Positions 5,060 to 20,141 of a DNA stretch of 34,086 bases are shown here, piece by piece. Both the position numbers and the translations under genes were made by a program. The stretch is from Bacteroidales bacterium. Lineage in GTDB: Bacteria > Bacteroidota > Bacteroidia > Bacteroidales > 4484-276. Below the pieces are notes generated by a model. That model did not search any database. It had not been told where the DNA came from and saw nothing but the letters and a program-made list of their open reading frames with translations. The stretch spans positions 1-34,086 of the forward strand of contig JACZJL010000179.1 in NCBI GenBank assembly GCA_014860585.1. Reading direction: 5' to 3'. Positions within the stretch are counted from its first letter, which is position 1, and the number at the start of each line of letters is the position of its first letter.

Positions 5060-5090
5060 TTAGCTATAGAAAAGTTTTAGAACAAAAAAA

Positions 5091-5117
5091 CTGCCGGTAT
5101 TTACCGGCAGTTTTTTT
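5091..5117 (+). terminator. Intrinsic terminator, probably bidirectional
   Basis: CTGCCGGTA at 5091-5099 pairs with TACCGGCAG at 5102-5110, followed by seven T (5111-5117). The stem is preceded by seven A (5084-5090), so the same hairpin also has a U-tract when read leftward. It lies 31 bp after the stop codon of the receiver/PEP-synthase-like gene and clearly ends that transcript. It could also stop leftward transcripts from the PKD-protein operon. Confidence 0.93.
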
Positions 5118-5424: not shown

Positions 5425-5523
5425 ATGTCTAACCCAGATTTCTTCGAAGAAGACTCATTTTTTGGGATTGGTTGCCTGACATTGAATGAAATGGAGAATT
5501 TATTTTATGAACTTTACGGATGA
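5425..5523 (+). CDS. Very short acidic open frame, doubtful
   Basis: ATG at 5425 opens a 32-residue frame beginning MSNPDFFEEDSFFGIG and ending in FYELYG. It is acidic and protein-like, but it overlaps the 3' end of the convergent PKD-protein gene by 24 bp and has no visible promoter. It could be the tail of a lost gene, with an in-frame stop four codons before the ATG. Listed only because the gap is otherwise empty. Confidence 0.13.
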   Translation: MSNPDFFEEDSFFGIGCLTLNEMENLFYELYG

Positions 5524-8500
5524 GCCAAGGCCGGATTTCAAATCCCTCAACCGAAGAAAATAGACCCCTGGTTTTAATTGGTTAGCGGGCAGTTCGAACT
5601 GATTCAGGCCAGATTTTATAACTAGTTTCCGGCGTAAAATAGTCTGCCCCGAAATGTTGGTAATCAGTAATTCTGCAGGAAAATCAGTAGTTTGAAAAAT
5701 TTCTACAAAAAACTTCTCCAACACCGGGTTGGGAAAAACTCGAACAGAGATTACATCATTTACCGGATCTTCTGTTACCGGTGTTGAACCGGCATCGAAT
5801 ATTTCTATTTCGATATCCTTTACCACGGGATTCGTCTCAGTAATTGTCACCATCAACTTTTCACAAACTTTTCCTGCTGATTCGGCAGCAAGATAATATG
5901 TCCCAAATGGGAGTTCATCAAATCCAAAGTCTCCGGAACTTCCTGTGAATGTATAATTGATAGGCTGAAGTTGTTCATCGAAAAGTAAAACTGCTGTATT
6001 GAAAGCCGGTACTATTTGGTCGTGAGTAAAGGATTGATATATCACCGAACCTGCAATTGATCCGATTCCTTGCTGCATTAATGGTAAAATACCAAGGTGA
6101 ATGTCGAGATGATAATGGTTAGAATCGGAGACAAAGCAATATTCAGCATTCTGCCAGGTAAGTTCATTACCAAAATAAGTCGGGAAATACTTTTGAAAGT
6201 TAGATGAACCACTTGTCAACTGTGCTTTGATCAGGTAATGATCACTTAGCAAATAAAGTGCGCTGTAATAGCCGTATTCAGTGAATTGAGCCGTGTCGAG
6301 CGGAATGACCATATTATTGCGGTAACGGTAAAGCATTATTTCTGCTGTATCTCCGGTTGGCGCCGGGTTGTTGATTGGGAAATTCCCCGAAAAAATAAAA
6401 CCGCCGATATGGAAATACTCAGGGGATATGAATTCCATTGTTTTTGTGTCTGAACATGATGCGCCGAAAGGATTGTTCCGGATTACATTTAAAGTAACCT
6501 GATAAGTTCCTGCCCCGTCATACTGATGCGAGGGATGCTGAACTGTTGAAGTTGAGCCATCGCCGAAATCCCAGAGCCATTCATCAGGCTGTCCTGCTGA
6601 AAGGTCTTTAAAATGAATAAAATTGGGCATATTTATCCCCGAATCGGGAATTGCAATAAAATCAGCGTAACACTCGGGCATTGGTGCAAACACATAGATC
6701 TGCCTGGAAAATGTATGGTTACACCAAACCAGCGAATCAGTGTGTGATACAGAAAGGGTAACTGTGTAAAACCCACTGTCCGCAAAAGCATGAGTAGGAT
6801 GTTGAAGCAAGGATGTGGCGCCGTCGCCAAAATCCCATTCCCATGTATTCATATTTCCCTGCGAAAGATCATTAAACTGGATGATGAGTGATTGATCCTG
6901 CGCTGGCAGAAAGTCAAAATTGGCTTCACACATGGGTTCAAATTCGATCGTGATCTCTTTACAGAATTGATGATTACAACTACCTGTATAATCCGATACA
7001 TCAAGGCAAACATCAAAATTGCCACCATCAGAAAATGAATGTACCGGATTTTTTAGCGTCGAACTGTTTCCATCATCAAAATTCCAATTTCGGTTAACAA
7101 TTTCTCCTGATGAGAGATCTGCAAAGCGAACAACAAGAGGATTGTAGAGGGAGTGTAGTTCGATAAAATCAGAAATGCAAAAAGGCTCAGTGCTGATTTC
7201 AATAGTTTGCCAAAACTGGTCAGTTAAACCAGAATCCAAATCAAAGACGTGCAGACAGACCCAAAAACTTCCTTCCGAAGCATAAATGTGCTGAGGACAG
7301 CTTTCAAAAGAATAGGCTCCATCGCCAAAACTCCAGATTTTTATTTCATGTTTTCCCAGGGTTTGGTTGACAAACTGAACAGAAAAGGGGTTTTCAGGAA
7401 AAATGAACGGTTCAAATCCTGCTTGCAAAGGAACATCAGGAGCAACTGTAATGACATGACAGAAATTGTCAGAGCACCAGCCGAAATTGTCAGTCACAGT
7501 AATACAAACCCTGTAAATGCCAGTACCCTCAAAAATATGGGTCGGATTTTCCTGGGATGAAGTATTACCGTCGCCGAAGTCCCATTCTATTTGCAAAGTA
7601 TCGCCATGTGATGCATTGGTAAAATGATAAATCAGCGGGTTCGTCACATCTGGAGTAAAGGTAAAAAAGGCTTTGCATTCCTGGGTTATGCCTGCATAAA
7701 TTGTTTTGCAGTAACTTTCGGTGAAATTACCGGGTTGATCGCTGATAGTCTGGCACACGGTATAAGTTCCGGGTGTGGCAAAATTATGCGTTGGATGTTT
7801 AAGTTCAGAGGTGCTTCCATCGCCAAAATCCCAAAACCATCTATCCGGATTCCCGGTCGACATATCAATAAATCGCCAGGTTAAGTCATCACCATCCTGG
7901 TTAAAGGCGTTAAAGTGGGGAAGATAATCAGGTTGTAACGACACGGTTTCAATCTGGACGAAACTGCTCTGGCAACTATAGGTTTGATTAGTGGTGGTGA
8001 GTTTTATCGTGTAAATTCCTTCAAGTGAAAAACTATGCACTGGGTTTTGCAGGGTAGAAGTCTGTCCGTCACCAAAATCCCAAAACCAACCCTCAGGATC
8101 ACCAGCTGAAATATCAACAAAATGTAGTGTCATCGGATCAAGTGGATCAGGAAAGGTGAGGAATGAAGCACTGCAATTGCCTACCGGACTGACTTCAATG
8201 CTTTGACAAATTGTATCAGACTGATTCCCTGGCTTCATTGCAACGAGGCACACAGTATAAGTTCCCGGTGTAGAATAATGATAAAGCGGGTTTTGCACTG
8301 CACTTGATCTCCCGTCTCCAAAACTCCATTGCCAGGAAGTTACATTTCCTAAAGATAGATCATAGAATTGAACAGAGGACTGATTACCGGGTATGTTAAA
8401 GTATGTAAAACGTGCCTGAACTAAAGTATCGTCGTTTGAATCAATCGTGTTACAATAAGTATCGTTACAAGTTCCATTGTTGCCGGAAATGGAAAGACAG

Positions 8501-9036
8501 ACTTCATAATGCCCGTCGTCGAGGTAAAAATGTACCGGATCGGGCTCAGTCGAAGTATTTCCATCCCCAAAATCCCAGAGCCATTCATCGATGTTTCCCA
8601 TCGAAGATTGTTTGAAGTTCACTTTGTTGGATTGGGACGGGTCGTAAACCCATATAAAATCCGATCGACAAATGCTTGATTGCTGGCTGTTGCATATGGC
8701 AAAATTTGTCATGAAACTGGTTTGTGCAGGAGTGAATTGAAGCGTATTGGTGATCAATTGATTGGAACAATCAACGGTTGAAACATGAAGAATGCCTTTT
8801 GAAAATGGAAGATCAAAAAGGAAACTGAAATATCCGAACTCATTAGTTATGACTTTATCAAAGAAAAGATAGGGAGGATCCTGGTTTTTAAATTTGAGCG
8901 TTACCTCATGTCCTGCAACCGGATTGCCTGAGCTGATATCTGAAACATAGCCTGAAACGAAGATCCTGGTATCATTGCCTAAAAGAGATAAAGGGAGAAG
9001 TATGATAAGCAGTAAGGCAGAGTACAATAGCTTCAT
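5500..9036 (-). CDS. Giant secreted protein with nine PKD domains and T9SS sorting signal
   Basis: 1178 residues. A signal peptide (about residues 1-20) is followed by a carboxypeptidase-regulatory-like beta domain (~22-105). Nine PKD repeats run from ~115 to ~865, most with the core WDFGDG followed by a P-x-H and a hydrophobic beta strand; repeats 6 and 7 deviate (IWSFGDG, NWNFDDG). Near 990-1085 there is a second carboxypeptidase-regulatory-like domain, and the last ~80 residues form a type A T9SS C-terminal domain (VFPNPVLEKF near its start). It should be exported across the outer membrane and anchored or released at the surface. PKD arrays usually serve adhesion or as spacers for catalytic domains, and no catalytic domain is visible here. 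It is the third gene of the operon led by the ECF sigma factor, 16 bp after the barrel protein. Confidence 0.9.
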   Translation of the reverse strand: MKLLYSALLLIILLPLSLLGNDTRIFVSGYVSDISSGNPVAGHEVTLKFKNQDPPYLFFDKVITNEFGYFSFLFDLPFSKGILHVSTVDCSNQLITNTLQFTPAQTSFMTNFAICNSQQSSICRSDFIWVYDPSQSNKVNFKQSSMGNIDEWLWDFGDGNTSTEPDPVHFYLDDGHYEVCLSISGNNGTCNDTYCNTIDSNDDTLVQARFTYFNIPGNQSSVQFYDLSLGNVTSWQWSFGDGRSSAVQNPLYHYSTPGTYTVCLVAMKPGNQSDTICQSIEVSPVGNCSASFLTFPDPLDPMTLHFVDISAGDPEGWFWDFGDGQTSTLQNPVHSFSLEGIYTIKLTTTNQTYSCQSSFVQIETVSLQPDYLPHFNAFNQDGDDLTWRFIDMSTGNPDRWFWDFGDGSTSELKHPTHNFATPGTYTVCQTISDQPGNFTESYCKTIYAGITQECKAFFTFTPDVTNPLIYHFTNASHGDTLQIEWDFGDGNTSSQENPTHIFEGTGIYRVCITVTDNFGWCSDNFCHVITVAPDVPLQAGFEPFIFPENPFSVQFVNQTLGKHEIKIWSFGDGAYSFESCPQHIYASEGSFWVCLHVFDLDSGLTDQFWQTIEISTEPFCISDFIELHSLYNPLVVRFADLSSGEIVNRNWNFDDGNSSTLKNPVHSFSDGGNFDVCLDVSDYTGSCNHQFCKEITIEFEPMCEANFDFLPAQDQSLIIQFNDLSQGNMNTWEWDFGDGATSLLQHPTHAFADSGFYTVTLSVSHTDSLVWCNHTFSRQIYVFAPMPECYADFIAIPDSGINMPNFIHFKDLSAGQPDEWLWDFGDGSTSTVQHPSHQYDGAGTYQVTLNVIRNNPFGASCSDTKTMEFISPEYFHIGGFIFSGNFPINNPAPTGDTAEIMLYRYRNNMVIPLDTAQFTEYGYYSALYLLSDHYLIKAQLTSGSSNFQKYFPTYFGNELTWQNAEYCFVSDSNHYHLDIHLGILPLMQQGIGSIAGSVIYQSFTHDQIVPAFNTAVLLFDEQLQPINYTFTGSSGDFGFDELPFGTYYLAAESAGKVCEKLMVTITETNPVVKDIEIEIFDAGSTPVTEDPVNDVISVRVFPNPVLEKFFVEIFQTTDFPAELLITNISGQTILRRKLVIKSGLNQFELPANQLKPGVYFLRLRDLKSGLGSSVKFIK

Positions 9037-9052
9037 ATTGAAATCAAAATTA

Positions 9053-10747
9053 TTAAAATGTGTAAAAAACTCCTGTTCTCAATCCAATCCCATAGGGATT
9101 TGTGAGTTTTTCGTTGTTGGAATTCATTTCATAAACTGTACCTAAATAATACCGGTAAACAGGTTCCAGCATGATCCCTAATTTTTCCGACACCTGAAAC
9201 TGCAATCCTAAACTAACAAGCAACTGAATACTGGTGGTTAATCTTGGAAGGGTATAATTGTCGATAGTATTGATTGTTGCACCCGGTTGATAAAATTCAA
9301 GCCCTGGTTCATTTTTATTTAAAAGGATGGAAAAATTTGGCCCGGCCTTAATGTAGGCTGAAAAGTTTCCATGTTCCATTGCTTTATAGCCAAACATAAT
9401 CGGTAGTTGGAGATAAGTATAGTTGTTTTTGGTTTGCTGATGGGATTGATGTGAAACTGAATCCCAAACTCCGACTTCCTGAATATCGTAAATTAAATTC
9501 CCCGGGTTTTCAGGGTCAATGGTAAAACCGTTGACATGCTGGTAAAAACCAATGCTGTCATAGGTTTCCATATTTACCATGTAGTCGCCGAGATCATAAA
9601 TGTAGCTGAATTCAATCCCGCCCTGAATAATGTAAGTAGGCGTATTATAACCAACAGCAAGGCCGGTGGCCAAACTCTTTTCGTGGGAGGAGGAGGTCAT
9701 CCTTGCATATTCGGTAATTTCAGGGGTAGCATATAGTGCAAGTGTAAGATGTGAAGTCTTTCTTCTCTGGTTCTTGATCACCAGCGTTTGAAATTCCCGT
9801 TTTGGTGGTTTGTACTGTCCACGGAAAAGATACGTGAGTGAATGATTCGTGGAGCTTAAACTGATCGGCTTTCCTGTAGAATGTTTTAAAGCAACAGCAT
9901 CCTTTTGTTTCAGGGCAGTTTCATTATTTGTTTTTCCTGTGAAGTATTTGTAGGTATTGAAATCCATTGCATTACGCTCAGCCATAGTCACAGGTTCGAG
10001 ATCTTTAATTCCAATCCTTCCGAGTTGCACTATACCAAATATCCTGGATTCGACGGAGGTTTTTTCAGGTAAAATTGTACTATTAAGACCAAAATCATCT
10101 TCGTTATGCTCTTTTGCAGCTGCCTCATTGTTAATCATTGGAATGGTTACAGGAACAACCGGATCAACTCTTGGGATTGCCGCTGCGACTTCTTTTTGAT
10201 TTTGAATGCCTGGATGTGTCACTTCCAAGTCCGGTTTACCCTCAATTATTGTAGTTTGGGCTTGGGTTTCAGCACCTGTAATTGCATCTATTCCGGTCGC
10301 ACCCGGTTGAGGTTTCACTGCTGATTTTGACAGTTGGGCATCCTGTTTTTCAGTTCTTCCGGGAAGAGGAGGTAGAGATTGATGGTCAACAGTTGAATTC
10401 TTATCAGTTAATCCGTCATGGGTGATCCCGGTTTCAACCTTGTATAAATCTGCCGGGGGTTTATTGGCATCATTTTGCCTTGTGGTGGGCAGTATTTGAT
10501 CAGACGGGTAATTTTTCTCAGTTTCAGAAGGACTGTTAAAATAGAATAATGCAACAGTAGCAATGATAATTGCTGCAGCAGGAACGGTGGTCCATGAAGC
10601 AGGTACGTTGTTGAAATTGAAGTGTGCTGCTTCCTTCCATAACATTTGCCAAGACAAACGTCGCCATAAACTTTTCGAGGGCTGTGCAGTAAATTCGCTC
10701 AACCCTGATCTGAAAAGTTCGTCAATATTGTTTTTACCGGTTTTCAT
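9053..10747 (-). CDS. Putative dual membrane-spanning anti-sigma factor with outer-membrane barrel
   Basis: 564 residues. The N-terminus (~1-50) is soluble and contains DELFRSGLSEF followed by a Pro and SLWRRLS, the pattern of Bacteroidota ECF anti-sigma tails. A single hydrophobic helix spans ~52-70. Residues ~71-310 form a low-complexity linker rich in Pro, Thr, Gln and Lys. The C-terminal ~235 residues look like a PorT-type outer-membrane beta-barrel with alternating strands, ending in the aromatic VFYTF expected of a barrel terminus. Known family: proteins of this layout in Bacteroides thetaiotaomicron were described as dual membrane-spanning anti-sigma factors (Dma). The start codon overlaps the sigma factor stop (TAATG), indicating translational coupling. 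Sequestering the upstream sigma factor is inference from layout and position. Confidence 0.78.
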   Translation of the reverse strand: MKTGKNNIDELFRSGLSEFTAQPSKSLWRRLSWQMLWKEAAHFNFNNVPASWTTVPAAAIIIATVALFYFNSPSETEKNYPSDQILPTTRQNDANKPPADLYKVETGITHDGLTDKNSTVDHQSLPPLPGRTEKQDAQLSKSAVKPQPGATGIDAITGAETQAQTTIIEGKPDLEVTHPGIQNQKEVAAAIPRVDPVVPVTIPMINNEAAAKEHNEDDFGLNSTILPEKTSVESRIFGIVQLGRIGIKDLEPVTMAERNAMDFNTYKYFTGKTNNETALKQKDAVALKHSTGKPISLSSTNHSLTYLFRGQYKPPKREFQTLVIKNQRRKTSHLTLALYATPEITEYARMTSSSHEKSLATGLAVGYNTPTYIIQGGIEFSYIYDLGDYMVNMETYDSIGFYQHVNGFTIDPENPGNLIYDIQEVGVWDSVSHQSHQQTKNNYTYLQLPIMFGYKAMEHGNFSAYIKAGPNFSILLNKNEPGLEFYQPGATINTIDNYTLPRLTTSIQLLVSLGLQFQVSEKLGIMLEPVYRYYLGTVYEMNSNNEKLTNPYGIGLRTGVFYTF

Positions 10748-11319
10748 TACTCTTCACTAAACGCTTTACTTTCAATAATTTGGTTAATTTTTGCGACCAA
10801 CACCCGTCGTGCTTTCATTAGCTGCGATTTGGAGGTGTTAACCGAAACACCCAGAAAATCAGCGATTTCCTGGTGTGTGTATTGCTCAAAAACGTAAAGA
10901 TTGAATACTGTTTTGTATCCCTCAGGTAGTTTTTGTATCAAGCCCATCAGTTTTGCCTGTGGAATTTTCACCAACGCAATTTCCTCCAATTGATCATCAT
11001 TCTTAATCTGGGTTTCATCAACATCTTCAATATCAGCGTGAAAATGGTGCTTTAAACTTTGTTTATTATGTGTAATTGCTGTATTCACAATTATTCTTTT
11101 TAACCAGCCTTCAAACGAACCTTCACCCCTGAAACTCCCGATACTTGAAAAAATCTTGATAAAACCTTCCTGTAAAATATCCTCTGCCTCATGTTTATTT
11201 CGTGCATATCGCAGACAAATCCCCAATAATACGGGCGCATACCTGTTGAACAGCTTGTTTTGAGCATGTCGTTTTCCACTGATGCAGCCTTCTATTATTT
11301 TCAGATCTGCTTCGGTCAT
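10747..11319 (-). CDS. ECF-type RNA polymerase sigma factor
   Basis: 190 residues with sigma-70 region 2 (AEDILQEGFIKIF and, after it, GSFEGWLKRI) and region 4 (a helix-turn-helix around YTHQEIADFLGVSVNTSKSQ). There is no region 1 or 3, so it is an extracytoplasmic-function sigma factor of typical length. It is the first gene of a leftward operon and its stop overlaps the start of the putative membrane anti-sigma factor, which is the standard sigma/anti-sigma arrangement. It likely autoregulates its own operon. A possible -7 element lies at 11422-11429, giving a leader of roughly 95 nt. The target regulon cannot be read from this window. Confidence 0.94.
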   Translation of the reverse strand: MTEADLKIIEGCISGKRHAQNKLFNRYAPVLLGICLRYARNKHEAEDILQEGFIKIFSSIGSFRGEGSFEGWLKRIIVNTAITHNKQSLKHHFHADIEDVDETQIKNDDQLEEIALVKIPQAKLMGLIQKLPEGYKTVFNLYVFEQYTHQEIADFLGVSVNTSKSQLMKARRVLVAKINQIIESKAFSEE

Positions 11320-11421
11320 ACGATGCTACGGTTAATTGACTGCTTTTGTGTGTATAGGTTGCCTGACAGCAATTTATTTATCGTCTGGAGTTATCTAAAA
11401 TTAAGCCTGTTGAATTGTGTG

Positions 11422-11536: not shown

Positions 11537-13762
11537 ATGAAAAAAGTTGCATTGTTTTTACTCCTGGTGGAGTTGTTCGTTCAGGCGAAAGGTCAAACTT
11601 ACATGGAACTTGTTGATAACATGGAAATCCCGTCGAATTCTGACATTAAAATTCTTGGAGGAGATTACATTTTTACCGATTACGAATGGGACGGAGTGAT
11701 TAAAATCATAAATAAAGAGAACATTATTATTGATGGCGACAGTGTCACTGTTCAGGGTGGTAATTTTATGGGTTACATGATTGATATTCAGAATTCAACA
11801 AACATTGTCCTCCGAAATTTTGAACTGGTGAACAGTTACAAATACGCGGTTCGATGTCTCAATTCGCAGAACATTCTGATTGAAGCGAATAATTTTTCAT
11901 ACAATAAGAAGGATACTACAGGCTGGATACAAATCTGGACACCCTATACTTCAGCGCTTGGTGGAGGTGTATTGTTTTACAACAGCTCTTTTATTGAGGT
12001 GCATGAAAACGTGATGACACAGCAGAATGATGGTGTCGCCCTTTATCAATGCAATAATGCAGTCATTGCTAACAACGTAATGAATTGGAATTGTGGTTTT
12101 GGGGTTCGGTTGAATTTTTCGGACTTCTGCTGGGTGCATCACAACGACCTGTCGCACATCAACCGGGAAACCGATCCGAGCGACTGTGCTGCCATCTTGC
12201 TCATTGTGTCCAACAATAACCTGGTTGAACATAACAATCTTAGCTACTCCGGAGATGGTGTGTTCCTCGGACAGTTTGAGTATTCACAGATCCCCAATAA
12301 CAATGAGTTCTATTACAACGAGTGCTCTTTTTCCCCGCACAACGCCATTGAAGCTACTTTTGCTGATGGTAATATTTACAAGCACAACAAATGCAATTAC
12401 AGCCATTATGGCTTCTGGCTTGGGTATTCGTTCAATTCGATGGTCGACAGCAACGAGGTGATCGGAAACCAGCATTCAGGAATTGCTATAGACCGGGGCT
12501 TCAACAATAGCTTCACCGGCAACATCATCAGCGAAAACCCGGCAGGACTTGAGCTCTGGGAAGGAGATGGTATTCCCCCTTATCAAAACCAGCTTTCTCA
12601 GGATTATTACGTTTTATACAACATGTTTGAAGGAAATGAAAAGGCCATCCTCGCAAAAAAAACTGAACACCTGGTAGTTGCCGGTAATCAGTTTTTGAAT
12701 AATCGTACAGACATTTACCTTGAAGGAGATTCTTTTAATGATACTATTACCGGAAACCTGTTTCAGGGCACAGCTACATTTTACATCGAAAATCGTTCAT
12801 CTGATGATATTTATGCTGTTGCTAATGACTTTGTGTGGAATGATACTGATCTGATTTCCTGTAAGGTTTACGACCAAGAAGATGACCCGGCATTTGGTCA
12901 GGTGATGTGGCAGCCGTTTTTGTCTGGAATTGACCCCTATTACCAGCACATTCCACCAACTGACATGGCTGAGCCAGAGGCCATTTGGTATGCTTACCCC
13001 GAAGCTTGCTGGGGTTATGGTAACTGGATTCCGACTTTCGTTGAGTGGGACTACAACAACAAAGTTTTTGGAGAAGCCTCCATTCACCTCGTTACAGGCA
13101 ACGGCTGGGATTTAGGGATGATGTACAGGCCAGGTGATGGCGCCATTGCATCGTGGAATCTTACCGAACATGACACACTGGTCATTTGGGCAAGATCAAT
13201 AAATACAACAGGTTATGGGTTTCAATTTTGTCATGTGAAACTTGGAAACAACTGCGGGGGGTATTACCGTTACACCGCATCAGCAGCGGTAGTTCTCAAC
13301 CCAACTATTAACCAATGGAAAGAGATCAGGATCCCCCTTGCAGGTGGCTCTCCGTGGGCAAGGTCTATGGTTGGAAGTGTTGAACTGTCAAACATTAGTT
13401 ACATTGAATTCCATGCTGACACCTGGGAATATGGTTTTGAACTGTGGCTGGATGGGGTGAATTTTGTTCCTAATGTTACAACCATTAAAGACCCGAACCG
13501 ACCCTGTGATCACCGGATGACCATTTCGCCCAATCCGGTAAAAGAAGAATCCATCATAAGCCTATCGCTACCACATCCTGAGTGCATTGAAATTGATCTG
13601 ATTGATTATTCAGGGTCATTTGTAAAGGTGATAAGGAAGGGCAGCTTTGATCGCGGTCAACATACATTGATATTCCGAAAAGAAGATCTTGGATCCGGAA
13701 TTTATCTGATCAGGTTTAAATCTGAAAATGCTGTTAAAACGCAGAAGATCATTATATTGTAA
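11537..13762 (+). CDS. Secreted right-handed parallel beta-helix protein with T9SS sorting signal
   Basis: 741 residues. Signal peptide ~1-19 (hydrophobic core, then QAKGQ). Residues ~40-470 are rungs of a right-handed parallel beta-helix, rich in Asn with recurrent patterns such as NNVM, NNLSYSGDGVFL and NEVIGNQHSGIAI, as in pectate-lyase/NosD-type folds. Residues ~505-650 look like a jelly-roll carbohydrate-binding module (runs such as DTLVIWARS and FELWLDGVNF). The last ~80 residues are a type A T9SS C-terminal domain (ISPNPV, then GIYLIRF near the end). The fold is shared by polysaccharide lyases, epimerases and glycosidases, and I cannot identify catalytic residues. It is probably a surface protein acting on or binding polysaccharide. 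It is transcribed divergently from the sigma operon. Confidence 0.85.
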   Translation: MKKVALFLLLVELFVQAKGQTYMELVDNMEIPSNSDIKILGGDYIFTDYEWDGVIKIINKENIIIDGDSVTVQGGNFMGYMIDIQNSTNIVLRNFELVNSYKYAVRCLNSQNILIEANNFSYNKKDTTGWIQIWTPYTSALGGGVLFYNSSFIEVHENVMTQQNDGVALYQCNNAVIANNVMNWNCGFGVRLNFSDFCWVHHNDLSHINRETDPSDCAAILLIVSNNNLVEHNNLSYSGDGVFLGQFEYSQIPNNNEFYYNECSFSPHNAIEATFADGNIYKHNKCNYSHYGFWLGYSFNSMVDSNEVIGNQHSGIAIDRGFNNSFTGNIISENPAGLELWEGDGIPPYQNQLSQDYYVLYNMFEGNEKAILAKKTEHLVVAGNQFLNNRTDIYLEGDSFNDTITGNLFQGTATFYIENRSSDDIYAVANDFVWNDTDLISCKVYDQEDDPAFGQVMWQPFLSGIDPYYQHIPPTDMAEPEAIWYAYPEACWGYGNWIPTFVEWDYNNKVFGEASIHLVTGNGWDLGMMYRPGDGAIASWNLTEHDTLVIWARSINTTGYGFQFCHVKLGNNCGGYYRYTASAAVVLNPTINQWKEIRIPLAGGSPWARSMVGSVELSNISYIEFHADTWEYGFELWLDGVNFVPNVTTIKDPNRPCDHRMTISPNPVKEESIISLSLPHPECIEIDLIDYSGSFVKVIRKGSFDRGQHTLIFRKEDLGSGIYLIRFKSENAVKTQKIIIL

Positions 13763-13798
13763 GGTGTTGGAAATTTAAATTTTCTTAGACCAGCATCG

Positions 13799-13825
13799 TT
13801 GACCTTTTAGAATTGTTTACTTTTG
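13799..13825 (+). promoter_or_regulatory. Bacteroidota-type promoter of the papain-like peptidase gene
   Basis: TTG at 13799-13801 is followed after 16 bp by TACTTTTG at 13818-13825, an exact TAnnTTTG match with the common trailing CA. The -7 element ends 35 bp before the ATG at 13861. This shows the peptidase gene has its own promoter rather than depending on the beta-helix gene upstream. Confidence 0.6.
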
Positions 13826-13860
13826 CACCCTGAATTACAATTTACAAAATTTTCTGACCC

Positions 13861-16800
13861 ATGAAAAAGATGCTTCTTCCCTTACTGTTGATCGTGTTGT
13901 CTTTGACCGTTTTACCATCAGCAGCGCAAATCATAACTCAGGCAGACACCATTGATGGAAAAGTTTTTATTGATGGCCTTCCTCTTTTTACCAATAAAGA
14001 CCTTGATGGCTTCAAATCGCTTCCAATAATTGAAATCCCTCAGGCTACCAGGAACAGAGATTTACCTGTTAATGTTGATAATTCACTGCTACCTTACTTC
14101 CGGCCGATTTTTAACCAGTCAAGCCTTGAATGCGGACAAGCAGCCGGTGTTGGCTATTTATTCACCTATGAGATGGACCGTTTAAGGAACTTACCTGCAA
14201 ACGTTCCTGAAAATCAATATCCCACGCATTTTGTGTTTAACTGGAGTAACAATGGAGCAGGTAATGCAGCAGCATTTTTCGACAGTTGGAATATCATAAA
14301 GGAAGTAGGTACTCCCAATGTAACAGATTATGGTGGAGGACTTAATACAGGTGGTGTTGCCCGATGGATGAATGGCTACGATCTTTACTACAGGGCAATG
14401 AAAAACAGATTGTGGGATTTTTACAAAATTCCGCTTAATAACCCATCTGATCTGGAGGTGCTCAAGCATTGGATTGACAATCATGGAGAAGGGGAAGAAA
14501 ACGGTGGAGTTGCAGTATTTTATGCCAGCTATATGGGTGTTAATCAAACATTACCACCTGGAACGCCTGAAGCAGGAAAATATGTGTTAACCATTCTGGG
14601 TAATTATGCCAATCATGCCTTAACTGTGGTTGGATATCATGATTCTATCCGCTATGATATTAACAATGACGGACAATACACCAATCATCTCGATATCAAT
14701 AACGATGGCAACGTTGATATCCTCGACTGGGAAATTGGTGGTGTGAAACTCGCCAACAGTTATTCTGCCACATCATGGGGCAACCAGGGTTTTGCTTACC
14801 TGATGTACAGCGCTTTATGTCGTCCATTGCATCTCGGCGGTGTATGGAACCGGTCGGTTCATGTGATCAATGGCAAGGAAAGCACCTATCCTCAGCTGAC
14901 TTTTAAAGCAAAGGTTACGCATAATGTTCGCAATCTGCTTAAGGTGATGGTTGGCATTGCCAATGGTTTTGATGCCACTGAGCCTGAGTACATCGTTGAA
15001 TACCCAATTTTAAATTACCAGGGTGGAAATTTTTACATGCAGGGCGGAAGTTCAGAGGCAGACAAAACGTTGGAGTTTGGACTCGATATCACCCAATTGC
15101 TTAAGTATGTTGAAAGTGGACAGGACGCCACATTTTTCTTCATGGTTAATGAAAAAGATCCTTCAAACAATGGTACGGGAATGATAAACAACCTATCGCT
15201 GATGGATTACACGGATGGCTTAATTGAGATCCCCTGTAACCAATCCAATGTGCCGCTTGTCGAAAATGGACTTACTACGCTAAAAATCAACGCAAATATC
15301 ACCTTTGATGCTCCGGACGTTTTGATTGAGGCACTTGAACCGGCCACTATCAATGAGCCTTACCAGTTTCAGATGCTTGGTACCGGAGGGACAGAACCAT
15401 ACCAGTGGAAGATAAAACAAGAATATGTTGCTCAAACCGGCACTCAAACCTTCCCTATGATCAACGCACAACAACTTTCACCAAATAGCTCAACCTCCGG
15501 ATTTGCTACTAAAACCATTGATTTTGACTTTCCTTTTTACGGAAAAGTTTACAATAAAATTTCAATACATACCGACGGCTATCTGATGTTTTCAGAAGAG
15601 CCCTATCCCTGGACTTTTTTGGTGGATGAACTGAATTTGTTTAAAAATCTTCGCAATATTTCACCTTACATGGCCAAAGCTTTAGGTGTGAGTGGCGGAG
15701 GTGGAATGTGGTACGAAGGCGACCAGAACAAGGCCACTTTCAGGTGGAAAGCTACCGAATACTCCACCAGTAATATTTTAAATTTCGCTGTAAGTATTTA
15801 TCCCTCTGGTGAAATTGAATTTTTCTATGGTGAATCGAATGGCGCCGCCTGGAATAAATGGCATGCAGGAATTTCTGATGGCGGCGACTTTAACTACCAT
15901 TTGCTTGATATTTCAAATACTTACAATATTCAGCCCAACACCAAAATCTCCTTTGAACCTGATTTTGCTTTTTCTGAAATGAAAATTACCGAGGACGGGC
16001 TTTTCTATGGCACACCCACACGTCCTTATGAAGCTGTTGATATTGTGTTTAATCTGAAGGACGCCAACGGATTGCAAGGATCCAAAGCTTTACCCTTTTT
16101 CACTGATGGTATTAATAAAATTGTGATCAGAGAAGTAAATGTGGTAGCCGGTGATGATGACATTATCGAATATGGTGAAACAGCCGTACTTTCAGTAGAA
16201 TTACAAAACATCAGCGACGAAGTGATTAATGCAACTCAAATGACCATTAATACGCAAAATCAATATATTACAGTGATTGATAACACGCTGGCATTAAGTT
16301 CATTCCAGCCAGGACAGGTCATCACATTTACGGATGCTTTTTCTTTTGACGTTTCAATGCAGGTACCCAATAACCTCGACATCATTTTTGCCACCGAAAT
16401 TGCAGCCCCTGATGAGACCTTCAACAGCCATATCTATCTGAAGGCCTACACACCTGACCTTGCAATCGGAACAATTTCCATTGAAGATGGCAATAATGGT
16501 TATCCCGAGCCGGGCGAAACACTTCAGGTTTTGGTCACTATAATTAATTCTGGTGGGGGCAAAGCTTACAACCTGCAAAGTAATATCTCCACCAGCGATC
16601 CATTTGTTACAATTAATCAGGGGAGTTGGTCAGCAGCGGTGCTTCCCGGAAATGGAAGTGTTGCGGCTCAGTTCGAGATTTTTGTTCATGAAGACACACC
16701 GACTGGTCATTTATCTCAGATTAACATTTACGCTTCGGCCGACTATGGGTTCAATGTTTCTGGGTCGTTTAATTTTTCCACAGGTTTTGTCGTTGAAGAT

Positions 16801-18231
16801 TTTGAGACCGGTGATTTCAGCAGTTACGACTGGGAATTTGGCGGAAATGCTGAATGGTTCATCACTGACCAGAATGTTTACGAAGGGCAATATTGTATGC
16901 AATCAGGCGATATTTCGGACAACCAGGTGAGTTCAGTACAGGTGACAATGAATGTGTTGTCGGATGGCGAAATCAGCTTTTATTACAAAGTGACCAGTGA
17001 AGCCAATTATGATTTTCTGGTTTTTTCGATTGATGGAACCACCATGGGTTCCTGGGCAGGAAGTGTGGATTGGGCTGAAGGCACTTTTCCTGTTCAGGCA
17101 GGTGAACGGACATTTTCGTGGAGTTATGAAAAAGATGTTTCTGTATCTACAGGCAGCGATTGTGCCTGGGTTGACTTCATCATTTTCCCTCCAAGTGCCC
17201 CTGAAGGCCTGATTGTTTTTGCCGGTCCCGATATGATGATTTGTGAGAACCAAACCCCTTTGCTGCAAGCCGTTGTGGCCAATGCCATTTCGATGGAGTG
17301 GACAACATCGGGAGATGGTACGTTCAGTAACCCGTCTGTTGCCAACCCAACCTACACTCCCGGACAGGGTGATATTTCATCAGGTTCAGCAGAATTGACG
17401 CTAACCGCATATGATAACCTGGGTGCTTCGATGACTGACAACCTTGTGCTTTCAATAACCAGGCTGCCTTATGTATATGCCGGTGAGGATGTTACTATTT
17501 GTGAGGTTGAAGAAATCGTAATCAATGCAATACTTCAGTACACCGAAGTTTGCAATTGGTCGACATCAGGTGACGGGACTTTCAGTGTATCAAACCAACC
17601 CAATACCGTTTACTATCCCGGTGAGAATGACCTGATATCCGGAAATGTGATACTTACTCTGACGGGGGTTCCTGTCACGCCATGCGCTGTAAGTATTTCA
17701 CATAGTATGTCCATCGATTTCCTTCCTTTGCCAGAAGTGTCATTTGACGAATTACCCGATTTTTGCCACAATTCCCCCGGATATGAATTAATTGAAGGAT
17801 CTCCGGTTGGGGGAATTTATGATGGACCAGGGGTTTCGAACGGATGGTTTTATCCTGAAGTTGCCGGAGTGGGAATTCATGAGCTTACTTACACTTATAA
17901 CGATGGGAATGGCTGCGAGAATTTTGCGGTTCAGGAGGTGTTTGTGGATGACTGCACCGGGATTTCAACTCCTGAAAATTCCGGCATTTCAATTTTTCCA
18001 AATCCAGGTTCCGGCACGTTTACCGTTCAGTTTGATCAGAACATAGCAGGAAGTTACCGCGTTGAAGTTTTTAACTCATACGGACAGCGGGTTTACAGCA
18101 ATGTAGCTGTGTTTGCTGTCAGTTCGTCAACCCAAACCCTTGATTTAACATCTCAGCCCGATGGTGTTTACTATCTGAAAATTACCGGCGGCGGTGCATC
18201 TGTTGGAGCTAAGCTGGTGGTGAAAAGGTAG
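13861..18231 (+). CDS. Giant secreted papain-like (C1) cysteine peptidase with T9SS sorting signal
   Basis: 1456 residues with a signal peptide (~1-22). The catalytic domain spans ~75-320: Q86 and C91 in FNQSSLECGQAAG, H252 in NHALTVVGYHD, and N299 in LANSYSATSWGNQG, which fit the papain oxyanion Gln and Cys/His/Asn triad. Between His and Asn sit two calcium-type loops, DINNDG at 266-271 and DINNDGNVDILDWE at 278-291. Downstream are an Ig-like region with a domain containing FPFYGKVYNKISIHTDGYL (~490-740), two CARDB-like domains (~757-960), a MAM-like domain (~976-1110), two Ig/PKD-like repeats each with TSGDGTFS (~1118-1285), and a type A T9SS domain (from ~1373, IFPNPGSG). It probably degrades protein at the surface or outside the cell. 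Activity is inferred from the triad. Confidence 0.85.
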   Translation: MKKMLLPLLLIVLSLTVLPSAAQIITQADTIDGKVFIDGLPLFTNKDLDGFKSLPIIEIPQATRNRDLPVNVDNSLLPYFRPIFNQSSLECGQAAGVGYLFTYEMDRLRNLPANVPENQYPTHFVFNWSNNGAGNAAAFFDSWNIIKEVGTPNVTDYGGGLNTGGVARWMNGYDLYYRAMKNRLWDFYKIPLNNPSDLEVLKHWIDNHGEGEENGGVAVFYASYMGVNQTLPPGTPEAGKYVLTILGNYANHALTVVGYHDSIRYDINNDGQYTNHLDINNDGNVDILDWEIGGVKLANSYSATSWGNQGFAYLMYSALCRPLHLGGVWNRSVHVINGKESTYPQLTFKAKVTHNVRNLLKVMVGIANGFDATEPEYIVEYPILNYQGGNFYMQGGSSEADKTLEFGLDITQLLKYVESGQDATFFFMVNEKDPSNNGTGMINNLSLMDYTDGLIEIPCNQSNVPLVENGLTTLKINANITFDAPDVLIEALEPATINEPYQFQMLGTGGTEPYQWKIKQEYVAQTGTQTFPMINAQQLSPNSSTSGFATKTIDFDFPFYGKVYNKISIHTDGYLMFSEEPYPWTFLVDELNLFKNLRNISPYMAKALGVSGGGGMWYEGDQNKATFRWKATEYSTSNILNFAVSIYPSGEIEFFYGESNGAAWNKWHAGISDGGDFNYHLLDISNTYNIQPNTKISFEPDFAFSEMKITEDGLFYGTPTRPYEAVDIVFNLKDANGLQGSKALPFFTDGINKIVIREVNVVAGDDDIIEYGETAVLSVELQNISDEVINATQMTINTQNQYITVIDNTLALSSFQPGQVITFTDAFSFDVSMQVPNNLDIIFATEIAAPDETFNSHIYLKAYTPDLAIGTISIEDGNNGYPEPGETLQVLVTIINSGGGKAYNLQSNISTSDPFVTINQGSWSAAVLPGNGSVAAQFEIFVHEDTPTGHLSQINIYASADYGFNVSGSFNFSTGFVVEDFETGDFSSYDWEFGGNAEWFITDQNVYEGQYCMQSGDISDNQVSSVQVTMNVLSDGEISFYYKVTSEANYDFLVFSIDGTTMGSWAGSVDWAEGTFPVQAGERTFSWSYEKDVSVSTGSDCAWVDFIIFPPSAPEGLIVFAGPDMMICENQTPLLQAVVANAISMEWTTSGDGTFSNPSVANPTYTPGQGDISSGSAELTLTAYDNLGASMTDNLVLSITRLPYVYAGEDVTICEVEEIVINAILQYTEVCNWSTSGDGTFSVSNQPNTVYYPGENDLISGNVILTLTGVPVTPCAVSISHSMSIDFLPLPEVSFDELPDFCHNSPGYELIEGSPVGGIYDGPGVSNGWFYPEVAGVGIHELTYTYNDGNGCENFAVQEVFVDDCTGISTPENSGISIFPNPGSGTFTVQFDQNIAGSYRVEVFNSYGQRVYSNVAVFAVSSSTQTLDLTSQPDGVYYLKITGGGASVGAKLVVKR

Positions 18232-18284
18232 GTGGGGATTTAAGCAATGATTGATTAGTATTAAATGGTGTCGGCAAACATCAG

Positions 18285-20129
18285 TTACATCTTTATGACC
18301 TTCTTTGTTACAACCGACTTCCCATTCTTTAAACTCAGGAAATAAATCCCTTTATCAAGCGACTTGAGATTGATACCAAAGGAAAGTTCGTTGAATTGCC
18401 GTCCGTCGGCTACTGCTTTGCCCATCAGATCATAAACTGTCCAGGTTATGGTTTCATAGGGTAGCCTGGTTTCAACTACCAAAGCGCCCTGAAACGGATT
18501 CGGGAAAACTTTGAGTGAGATTGTTTCGGGTTTGGTATCTTCCACATTAAGCGACTCAACATAAAAATCCCTGATTTCCTGAATGTGTTCTTTAAGCATG
18601 GCAACGCTTGAAATGTTGTCTCCTTCATAATCCCTTGCAAACACCAATGCAAATGTAAAATGCAATGAGTCGTTAGGGGCAAGAGAATAAGGGCCTGAGG
18701 AAACCAGCCCGCGGCGGTCGCCGGGAGTGGCATTTTCAGCGGCTTCGGACCATTCGGCAGGATTTGAGGGGTCTCCCGGAAAAATAAATTTTACAGGGAA
18801 AGTGCCGCCATAGCCGTTCCCTCCGCTGGTCAGCAAAGTAGAATCCCGCCACATGCACTTCATGTAGTTGTAGTACTCAGATGGGGCGTATGGGTCTGTC
18901 ATGGGCGACTGCCATGCATTGTTGAAGTGAATAAAGCCTGTCATTTTATAATTGAGGCACGTAAGCGAAAATGCAGGTGGCCGATCCCCATAGGTGCCTT
19001 CCTCACCATTTCCGTCAACGGGAGTTCCATTGTAAGCAAAACCTGAATGGAGCAATGTATCACAACCCACAAAATCATCCCACCAATGTCCCAGGTCAAA
19101 GTCGAGGAAAAAAGCACTATACACGTCTGAGTAGAAATTTTCAGAACGATTGATGATGGTATAGTCGCCAAAAATCGCCTGGCTTAACGCCGAATCTTCC
19201 GGTTGGTCATAAGCATAATAGATGGCATGGATTTCCACGCCCATCTTTTTTCCGCCGGATTCGGTGTGTTGCCTGTCGTCGTTGTAAATCAGGAATATAG
19301 TCTGGTCGCCTTTAATCACCGGGAAGTCGCCATCAGCGGCATTGTATTTTCCATCGCCATTCCAATCATAATAGGGCGCCAGTTTTGGAGCTTGTCCCAG
19401 GAGGATATTACCATTACCCGGCCAGCTGCTGATATTTTCGATGGGCTCGTATCCTGGTTGCTGCCAGTTATTGCGATGGTGCTCAATTTCTTCTTTATTT
19501 AATTTCCACACCCTGAACCACGCTGCATCAAAGTCCTGGTTGTAGTTCATCGTATCAGAAACCGGACCCGGAAAATAGTCGTTGCCTATCTGCTTGTATC
19601 TTTCCCCGGCAACGTGTAATTCTCCGTTTTCATCCATTCCACCTATCCAGAAAGATTTACTGAAAAGTGTGTGCAGCCCCGACCCGGCAGGAACTTCATA
19701 ACCATCGCCGGTGTTGCCATCCCAAAACTGAACCCCACAGGCAAGAATTTTTGCCTTTACCTGGTTAATACCAAGCATGTCAATCCCTTTATTTTCAACA
19801 TGAATATAAATCTTTGCAAACTGTGACATCAGGTTATTTTCAAGATCAACAATTCTGTAGCGAAGGGAATCAGTGCCTTCGAAGTGTCTTTTGGGAGTGT
19901 AAAATACTATCGAATCATTGAAGGTAAATGTACCGTTTGGAGTTCCGAAGACAGTAAAAATCCTGATGGGATGGTTTTCGTAACCGAAGTCGTTTGCCAA
20001 TGCAGGAATGGCGATGGTTTTCATGGCAAATGTCTCAGCGAAATCATCTATGGCGACAGGCTCTTTGTCGTCGGCTATCAATTTTATACTGACTATTAGA
20101 ATGATTGCAAGGGCGATAATTTTTTTCAT
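18285..20129 (-). CDS. Secreted T9SS cargo protein of unknown function
   Basis: 614 residues with a signal peptide (~1-19), an Ig/cadherin-like domain (~25-115, opening AIDDFAETF and containing IPALANDFG), a long conserved-looking region of ~400 residues, and a type A T9SS C-terminal domain (VFPNPFQG, then DKGIYFLSLKNG). A calcium-loop-like stretch DWNGDGKYNAADGDFP lies at 255-270. I do not recognise an enzyme family in the middle region. It is 12 bp downstream of the C10 peptidase gene on the same strand, so the two are almost certainly co-transcribed and may act together at the surface. The gene converges on the papain-like peptidase with a 53-bp gap and no obvious terminator. Confidence 0.82.
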   Translation of the reverse strand: MKKIIALAIILIVSIKLIADDKEPVAIDDFAETFAMKTIAIPALANDFGYENHPIRIFTVFGTPNGTFTFNDSIVFYTPKRHFEGTDSLRYRIVDLENNLMSQFAKIYIHVENKGIDMLGINQVKAKILACGVQFWDGNTGDGYEVPAGSGLHTLFSKSFWIGGMDENGELHVAGERYKQIGNDYFPGPVSDTMNYNQDFDAAWFRVWKLNKEEIEHHRNNWQQPGYEPIENISSWPGNGNILLGQAPKLAPYYDWNGDGKYNAADGDFPVIKGDQTIFLIYNDDRQHTESGGKKMGVEIHAIYYAYDQPEDSALSQAIFGDYTIINRSENFYSDVYSAFFLDFDLGHWWDDFVGCDTLLHSGFAYNGTPVDGNGEEGTYGDRPPAFSLTCLNYKMTGFIHFNNAWQSPMTDPYAPSEYYNYMKCMWRDSTLLTSGGNGYGGTFPVKFIFPGDPSNPAEWSEAAENATPGDRRGLVSSGPYSLAPNDSLHFTFALVFARDYEGDNISSVAMLKEHIQEIRDFYVESLNVEDTKPETISLKVFPNPFQGALVVETRLPYETITWTVYDLMGKAVADGRQFNELSFGINLKSLDKGIYFLSLKNGKSVVTKKVIKM

Positions 20130-20141
20130 TTCATTTTTCCT

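Follow-up and report, generated by a model that had tools for sequence, protein, structure and literature searches.

A Dma-type candidate anti-sigma factor encoded between an ECF sigma gene and a type IX secretion cargo gene in Bacteroidales

Introduction

Here we analyzed a 34,086-nt stretch of DNA from a Bacteroidales bacterium (contig JACZJL010000179.1 of assembly GCA_014860585.1; hereafter the window, whose positions serve as coordinates). The open reading frame (ORF) at 9053-10747 is the middle gene of a conserved three-gene module, where it follows a gene for an extracytoplasmic function (ECF) sigma factor and precedes a gene for a PKD-repeat protein predicted to be a cargo of the type IX secretion system (T9SS). 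The predicted architecture of its product supports assignment to the type of the dual membrane-spanning anti-sigma factors (Dma). Architecture, predicted fold, operon conservation, a promoter motif, and the placement of this motif before C25 peptidase and cargo genes were computed, and we consider it probable that the module works as a surface-facing switch of the Dma type, regulating itself and controlling T9SS surface proteins together with a secreted C25 protease.

Results

Organization and conservation of the three-gene module

The module consists of the following genes.
10747..11319, minus strand: ECF sigma factor of 190 amino acids (aa) (Pfam Sigma70_r2 1.1e-17 and r4_2 4.5e-15; TIGR02937 8e-29)
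9053..10747, minus strand: Dma-type candidate anti-sigma factor of 564 aa with an ATG start (ORF, Pfam, AlphaFold2, and structure alignment)
5500..9036, minus strand: PKD-repeat protein of 1178 aa with a start that resembles a signal peptide by eye and a T9SS type A sorting domain (Pfam and TIGR)

The sigma ORF ends in TAA, whose last base is the first base of the anti-sigma ATG, and the cargo gene of the window begins 16 nt past the anti-sigma stop codon. A sequence-only reading of this DNA had placed the start of the middle gene in overlap with an ECF sigma gene, and both the overlap and the matches to ECF models bear this out. For comparison, we used a family-level set of 12 genomes and sets of 295 and 395 genomes sampled at the order and phylum levels, respectively. 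A whole-genome search found anti-sigma matches in all 12 family-level genomes, and seven genomes besides the own genome encode a full-length protein; these seven relatives are 33-49% identical. Scanning the contigs with a profile of the eight-row alignment returned seven loci (in G001, G002, G003, G004, G006, G009, and G010), which were not counted again, while a single-sequence scan of the genome contigs with the anti-sigma protein found no relatives. The order sigma, anti-sigma, PKD protein was seen in 8/8 family-level copies, with the third gene in the same direction each time, and the sigma factors were 58-82% identical among the six family-level sequences aligned.

In the order-level set, 104/295 genomes matched the anti-sigma profile at E <= 1e-6, where weak matches may be other barrels, and 52/295 reached about 1e-15 or lower, with an additional cargo-profile match in 51. 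At the phylum level, E <= 1e-8 was reached by 70/395 genomes, and 64 of these belong to the same class but not to the order; by eye, 17 genomes matched over nearly the whole anti-sigma model and the rest over parts.

Domain architecture and predicted structure of the anti-sigma protein

The protein is divided as follows.
10613..10747, minus strand: candidate cytoplasmic anti-sigma domain, residues 1-45, with helices at 8-16 and 25-41 (AlphaFold2 block confidence, pLDDT, 57-81 over residues 1-40)
10538..10600, minus strand: transmembrane helix, residues 50-70 (AlphaFold2 and hydrophobicity)
9752..10537, minus strand: disordered linker, residues 71-332, presumed periplasmic (pLDDT mostly <50 over residues 79-303)
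9056..9751, minus strand: eight-stranded outer-membrane beta-barrel, residues 333-564 (Pfam, AlphaFold2, and VIA-align)
9422..9583, minus strand: long predicted beta-hairpin of barrel strands 3-4, residues 389-442, presumed extracellular (AlphaFold2 model)

The sequence-only reading had described an anti-sigma-like N-terminus, one transmembrane helix at about 52-70, a low-complexity linker of about 240 residues, and a C-terminal barrel at about 320-564 ending in an aromatic residue. This architecture is confirmed as real. Residues 52-70 are the most hydrophobic 19-residue segment within the first 200 residues and coincide with the AlphaFold2 helix; the linker is about 260 aa long and predicted to be disordered; strands are predicted over 333-563, and the last residue is Phe. 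In the AlphaFold2 model from 51 aligned sequences (mean pLDDT 68.8), which replaced a first model from eight rows (50.7), 10-residue block means over the strands were 80-98, nearly all at least 87. The eight-sequence model had given helices at 8-16 and 25-40, the transmembrane helix at 50-70, disorder, and the same barrel strands at about 55-89.

Pfam OMP_b-brl_2 matched residues 429-525 (E 2.5e-7, 31.4 bits against a cut-off of 27). With VIA-align, residues 326-564 were superposed on the published model of E. coli OmpA (Z 17.8, 165 residues aligned, root mean square deviation 2.8) and on the solved structures of NspA (Z 17.7), OprF (17.2), and OmpW (16.7). A sequence search of the PDB with the family alignment gave nothing meaningful (best E 0.44). 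The fold is thus like that of the eight-stranded barrels OmpA, NspA, and OmpW (Z 16-18); unlike in these proteins, the barrel is fused to a membrane-anchored domain predicted to be cytoplasmic, and strands 3 and 4 (372-410 and 418-459) are predicted to be 39 and 42 residues long, far beyond what is needed to span the membrane. Because the strand count starts from a periplasmic N-terminus, hairpin 389-442 of the model would lie outside the cell.

Among the eight family-level copies, conservation covers the N-terminus and the barrel and is much weaker in the linker (mean entropy 1.00 over residues 1-45, 1.97 over 75-305, and 0.55-1.08 over the barrel strands). Asp-9, Pro-23, and Trp-28 of the N-terminal domain are retained in 90-96% of the 51 aligned members. 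Over these 51 members the entropy of the hairpin was 2.20-2.48, compared with 2.83 and 2.61 for loops 480-504 and 535-551, respectively, and 1.8-3.0 for the membrane strands; among the eight close copies, its conservation hardly differed from that of other loops. The linker measures at least 110 aa in 51/51 members (median 162). At about 0.35 nm per residue of extended chain, 110 residues would suffice to cross a periplasm of 20-30 nm. Scans with Pfam and TIGR models matched the N-terminus to no known anti-sigma family, and a Pfam scan of the protein up to E 1 returned only OMP_b-brl_2 and a sub-threshold OMP_b-brl, with no FecR domain.

Coupling to T9SS cargo genes

In the third gene of the window, PKD_4 was matched at 9.3e-121 in nine stretches, and the sorting domain was recognized by Por_Secre_tail (9.6e-9, 35.9 bits against a cut-off of 27) and by TIGR04183 (3.1e-11). 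The own genome encodes the T9SS translocon component SprA (SprA_N, 3.6e-168) and has at least 150 Por_Secre_tail matches, with 150 of its 284 candidates scored. By these domain models, the third gene is a T9SS type A cargo in a genome with a T9SS translocon. The third gene encodes a PKD-repeat protein in 8/8 family copies, with Por_Secre_tail above the cut-off in 7/8; the eighth (L029) is a broken ORF with an early stop.

To these copies we added 40 order-level loci, hand-picked from the anti-sigma profile matches and mostly good ones; they were parsed starting at the sigma gene, so that loci without a sigma gene drop out. In the fetched loci, 67 sigma genes have a same-strand downstream neighbour, and 56 have a further same-strand gene. 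The barrel profile (E <= 0.01) matched 64/68 sigma-downstream neighbours, and the other four were kept in the counts. A sorting-domain regular expression fitted 41/56 of these next genes compared with 23/343 other genes of the same loci. Pfam (E <= 0.001) found Por_Secre_tail in 50/54 and PKD in 47/54 next genes with the family and order loci pooled, two genes cut by contig ends (L077 and L101) having been left out of the 56. Many next genes align mutually over a common C-terminal region, which in the window corresponds to the following feature.
5761..6399, minus strand: conserved cargo region, residues 880-1092, the source of the A5 profile (mutual alignment of next genes)

The 37 genes from which we built the A5 cargo profile all follow anti-sigma genes. 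In the 295 genomes, a same-strand barrel anti-sigma gene lies within 4 kb upstream of 41/42 cargo matches listed at 200 bits or more. Only 11 of the 42 were absent from profile building, and these are still relatives; 10/11 adjoin an anti-sigma gene, and the exception (L132) runs off its contig. Conversely, 44/45 anti-sigma matches of at least 100 bits have a downstream cargo match among the matches listed; the 45th (L148 of G224) has an adjacent cargo gene, and no sigma gene was found before the anti-sigma gene. Eight family genomes have a strong cargo match (at least about 250 bits), one per genome, and in seven of them it lies behind the anti-sigma gene; the eighth, in G005, is on a short contig in an ORF open at its start. 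G001 has two partial cargo matches, and in the family search G007, G008, and G011 had neither a strong cargo nor a full-length anti-sigma protein.

The distances between the three proteins are also correlated. After L029, whose broken cargo ORF distorted nearest neighbours, was dropped from 48 triples, the correlations over 47 triples were 0.72 for anti-sigma/cargo, 0.62 for sigma/anti-sigma, and 0.63 for sigma/cargo, each exceeding all 2000 permutations; the anti-sigma/cargo correlation was 0.55 once the sigma factor was removed.

Promoter motif and predicted regulon

Two sites of the same type lie in the window.
11338..11365, minus strand: candidate autoregulatory ECF-type promoter CAGGCAACC-N16-GTC, whose GTC ends 18 nt before the sigma ATG
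5452..5478, minus strand: second promoter-like site CAGGCAACC-N15-GTC, 21 nt past the cargo end, with no ORF of at least 90 aa starting within 260 nt

A GCAACC-like -35 element with a GTC -10 element is typical of ECF sigma factors. GCAACC-N16-GTC precedes the sigma gene in 8/8 family copies, with an A before GTC in each and the form TCAGGCAACC in 7/8. When 250 nt upstream of the 67 sigma genes were scanned for GCAACC-N13..19-GTC, 41 regions matched, with a spacer of 16 (17 cases) or 17 (24 cases) and no other length. GGCAACC-N15..17-GTC occurs twice in the window, compared with 0.12 expected from shuffles. In the 4.7-Mb own genome, CAGGCAACC-N15..17-GTC occurs three times and the reversed-pattern control not at all; the sites lie before the sigma operon, just past the cargo gene, and before a gene for a 1416-aa protein with a C25 peptidase domain, a C25 propeptide, and Por_Secre_tail.

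The exact motif (spacer 15-17) gave 28 sites compared with seven reversed-pattern controls in the 12 family genomes. Sites and controls numbered 27 and 4 in the nine genomes with a full-length anti-sigma protein or a strong cargo, and 1 and 3 in the other three. The genes behind the 28 sites include seven sigma genes, six C25 (gingipain-family) peptidases in five genomes, and one PKD protein, and one further site precedes a signal-peptide-like ORF open at its contig end. The chance of six C25 genes in 21 was about 3e-16, a value for which 15 C25 genes per genome were assumed rather than counted. We asked whether these peptidases are the PorU sortase; this was rejected, as the PorU model was listed for only two of the six scanned, with scores of 30 and 47 bits where the cut-off is 420.

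The motif was also found before the second cargo gene in L033, L078, L082, L087, and L138 and before the first in L103. All six of these cargos are PKD proteins with Por_Secre_tail above the cut-off, and the PKD protein counted behind the 28 sites is that of L033. These placements define a predicted regulon comprising the own operon, a C25 peptidase, and a second PKD cargo.

The second site of the window points into about 350 ORF-free nt that end near a hairpin at about 5085-5115 with flanking A- and T-runs (by eye). It may be a relic of a lost second cargo gene or may drive a non-coding RNA. L030 likewise has a promoter-like site with no ORF behind it.

Tandem, split, and cargo-less modules

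Eight loci (L078, L079, L082, L083, L087, L090, L091, and L092) carry two tandem cassettes. With cassette types labelled by the analyst from position and cargo length, the nearest relatives of both anti-sigma and cargo were of the same cassette type in 16/16 tandem cassettes. In L079, L082, and L083 the promoter spacer is 17 in the first cassette and 16 in the second; the second site of L082 falls inside the longest sigma frame, and the sigma start has therefore been set too early there.

A split version of the module was found in G003, G004, and G010 and, incomplete, in G009.
L119:1995-7726, L121:1375-7586, and L122:80-5645: split modules
In these modules the sigma gene is followed by one for a short protein (191-207 aa) with a single hydrophobic segment, then by one for a separate barrel protein (545-568 aa) with a signal-peptide-like start, and last by the gene for a PKD cargo that matches the cargo profile. 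The split-form barrels matched the family barrel profile at E 1e-18 or better, and the short transmembrane proteins matched the fused N-terminus weakly (E 0.005-0.08). We read the split form as putatively representing two halves of the fused anti-sigma protein kept apart. Repeated DTI-type, strand-like motifs were seen at the end of the short protein and in the first part of the barrel protein.

Further arrangements were noted. The own genome has a cargo-less sigma/anti-sigma pair on C68 (L035:5363-7382) with the promoter form ACGCAACC-N17-CGTC, and at C44:24943-25341 an N-terminal anti-sigma match within a 432-aa frame; both are further Dma-type candidates. The cargo-less pairs of L039, L041, L042, L043, L044, L045, and L047 adjoin a TsaB-like gene (recognized by eye), and at L139:1477-9930 and L147:4675-12422 three cargo-profile genes lie behind or around one sigma/anti-sigma pair.

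Genes adjacent to the module

Four further genes of the window encode proteins with Por_Secre_tail; they lie at 11537-13762 (right-handed beta-helix protein), 13861-18231 (protein of 1456 aa), 18285-20129 (Big_9 protein), and 20142-22601 (C10 peptidase with CUB domains). By this domain content, the neighbourhood 11537-22601 is a T9SS cargo cluster.

Discussion

Proposed mechanism and its weak points

We propose that the N-terminal domain would hold the ECF sigma factor in the cytoplasm, while the transmembrane helix would lie in the inner membrane, the linker would run across the periplasm, and the barrel would sit in the outer membrane with its hairpin outside, so that one chain would reside in both membranes. 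An outer-membrane signal would then free the sigma factor, and the freed sigma factor would transcribe its own operon from CAGGCAACC-N16-GTC. More anti-sigma protein would be made, giving negative feedback, together with the PKD-repeat T9SS surface protein. Further promoter copies at other sites would bring in a C25 peptidase secreted by the T9SS and, in certain relatives, another PKD cargo. That the output of the switch would be T9SS surface proteins and a secreted C25 peptidase is the strongest new proposal; the input is its weakest link.

Several observations weigh against this reading. The AlphaFold2 confidence of the N-terminal helices is moderate only. Cargo matches of 150-200 bits are less tied to the module, 28/41 having an upstream anti-sigma match; among the other 13, closer inspection tied five to a module (L137 to L141), two are on contigs that end too early for a decision (L134 and L149), two were not fetched, and four cargo genes are not behind an anti-sigma gene (L117 of the own genome, L133, L135, and L136). 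At the genome level (anti-sigma E <= 1e-6, cargo <= 1e-15; n = 295), 75 genomes had both matches and 169 neither, and 29 had only the anti-sigma and 22 only the cargo match. Gene linkage alone predicts correlated divergence of the three proteins. A paralogous fused clade (C68:19909-21375 of the own genome and others) is mostly without an adjacent cargo gene, and the cargo is therefore not a universal part of the architecture; in L040 of this clade, a gene fitting the sorting-domain expression lies 183 nt downstream.

Other points concern the promoter motif. Among the 28 exact sites, eight lie inside long ORFs and five have no suitable ORF behind them. The C25 sites occur in 5/9 genomes and in none of G004, G006, G009, and G010. 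Two of the six C25 sites fall within the stop-to-stop frame of the peptidase itself, so that the peptidase start must be further downstream. G006, which is of the same genus and has the module, lacks an exact match because its sigma promoter reads CGGGCAACC. One-mismatch matches in the own genome (17, control 13) were not clearly above the control and were dropped as uninformative.

Comparison with known systems

According to the report that describes Dma proteins (PMC13088901), their N-terminal anti-sigma region is followed by a single transmembrane helix, a long disordered tether, and a barrel at the C-terminus, and an ECF sigma gene adjoins their own gene. The sequence-only reading had likened the protein to Dma, and this likeness stands as one of architecture, since the helices, transmembrane helix, tether, barrel, and adjacent ECF sigma gene listed in that report are all present here by prediction, likewise in a member of Bacteroidota. 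The Dma work deals with effects on vesiculation and polysaccharide utilization loci, deletion of Dma1 or Dma2 reportedly raising vesicle production, and the operon partner of Dma2, BT_1557, is given as a protein of unknown function (PMC13088901). Unlike the systems described there, the operon here carries a T9SS PKD protein, and its promoter motif recurs before C25 peptidases. No element of our analysis suggests vesiculation; what the gene neighbourhood and the promoter motif indicate instead is T9SS surface proteins.

In Porphyromonas gingivalis, the abstract of the PorA-PorXY-SigP study proposes that a surface T9SS C-terminal-domain protein signals to an ECF sigma factor controlling T9SS genes (PMC7712824). 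A surface protein of this kind acting on a sigma pathway is a precedent for a cargo as input; that pathway differs in using a two-component system, and the abstract describes no barrel-tethered anti-sigma factor (PMC7712824). For SM6 of Flavobacterium psychrophilum, an ECF-type promoter motif common to a sigma/anti-sigma pair and T9SS-related genes has been described (PMC9723704); these genes, such as gldN and porU, encode T9SS components and CGT serves as the -10 box, whereas the motif found here precedes T9SS cargo.

The split form is closer in layout, with its transmembrane protein and separate barrel, to a further type of ECF control. In TonB-dependent cell-surface signalling, the state of the outer membrane controls an ECF sigma factor, and the receptor and the FecR-type anti-sigma factor are separate proteins. 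Outer-membrane control of an ECF sigma factor would thus be shared with the module; unlike in that signalling, no FecR domain was found here and the barrel is fused to the anti-sigma candidate. In the open-access literature searched, subscription papers being outside the search, we found no description of the module in terms of T9SS cargo coupling, a promoter with a C25 regulon, tandem cassettes, or a split version. The Dma architecture is known, while these four aspects were not found described.

What the barrel may sense

Because the pairing of anti-sigma and cargo genes is tight and the hairpin is conserved, the cognate cargo is one hypothesis for the input. The barrel and its outer hairpin would read the cognate T9SS surface protein, as a one-chain checkpoint that reports to RNA polymerase that the coat is in place; tandem cassettes would be insulated by matched barrel-cargo pairs and by N16/N17 spacers, and the anti-sigma and barrel proteins of the split form would meet in the periplasm. 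We put this forward tentatively. The barrel may instead sense an external nutrient or contact signal, such as a peptide, glycan, or surface, to which the PKD protein and the C25 peptidase would respond by attachment and digestion of protein-rich particles. In line with this, 5/12 family genomes have the promoter motif ahead of C25 peptidases, and the T9SS protein cluster of the window includes a CUB-domain C10 peptidase, whereas the cargos that co-diverge cassette by cassette and the related cargo of the split version favour a specific cargo-barrel pairing; sensing of this kind is possible, although doubtful. Assembly of the barrel could itself be the signal, in that a fault of the barrel assembly machinery (BAM), the T9SS, or the outer membrane would block insertion, the tethered chain would be degraded or moved, and the freed sigma factor would raise an envelope-assembly alarm. 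As the chain gets to the outer membrane only in its tethered state, insertion might set tension or protease access, the linker of at least 110 aa is kept in 51/51 members, and the barrel wall is well conserved. Against such an alarm, which we regard as rather unlikely, a general alarm needs no matched cargo, yet the eight two-cassette arrays show same-type relatives of anti-sigma and cargo; the outer hairpin is about as conserved as the membrane strands; and the putative regulon consists of secreted proteins rather than assembly factors.

Two further explanations depart more strongly from the proposed switch for T9SS surface proteins. The protein might, as in Bacteroides thetaiotaomicron, regulate vesiculation and polysaccharide loci, with the T9SS cargo incidental. 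Its domain order and adjacent ECF sigma gene are as in Dma2 and other Dma members (PMC13088901), but the sorting domain in 50/54 next genes and the motif before T9SS genes make this improbable. It is very hard to regard the protein as an ordinary outer-membrane barrel with an unusual signal anchor and no anti-sigma role, even though its N-terminus matched no known anti-sigma family: residues 1-45 are about as conserved as the barrel strands, which a mere signal anchor would not need; 8/8 family copies lie directly behind an ECF sigma gene (L148 being the locus where none was found before the anti-sigma gene); and the split relatives have a 191-207 aa transmembrane protein after the sigma gene, though one with the weak N-terminal match noted above.

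Implications

The module, which is common in the order-level sample, bears on the questions of which signals Dma-type proteins sense and which genes they control beyond Bacteroides, for it offers a defined promoter motif, a regulon prediction, and, in the cognate T9SS cargo, a candidate ligand. If the cargo is indeed the signal, secretion across the outer membrane would feed back on transcription via one protein, and the cell may read its own surface to choose what goes there.

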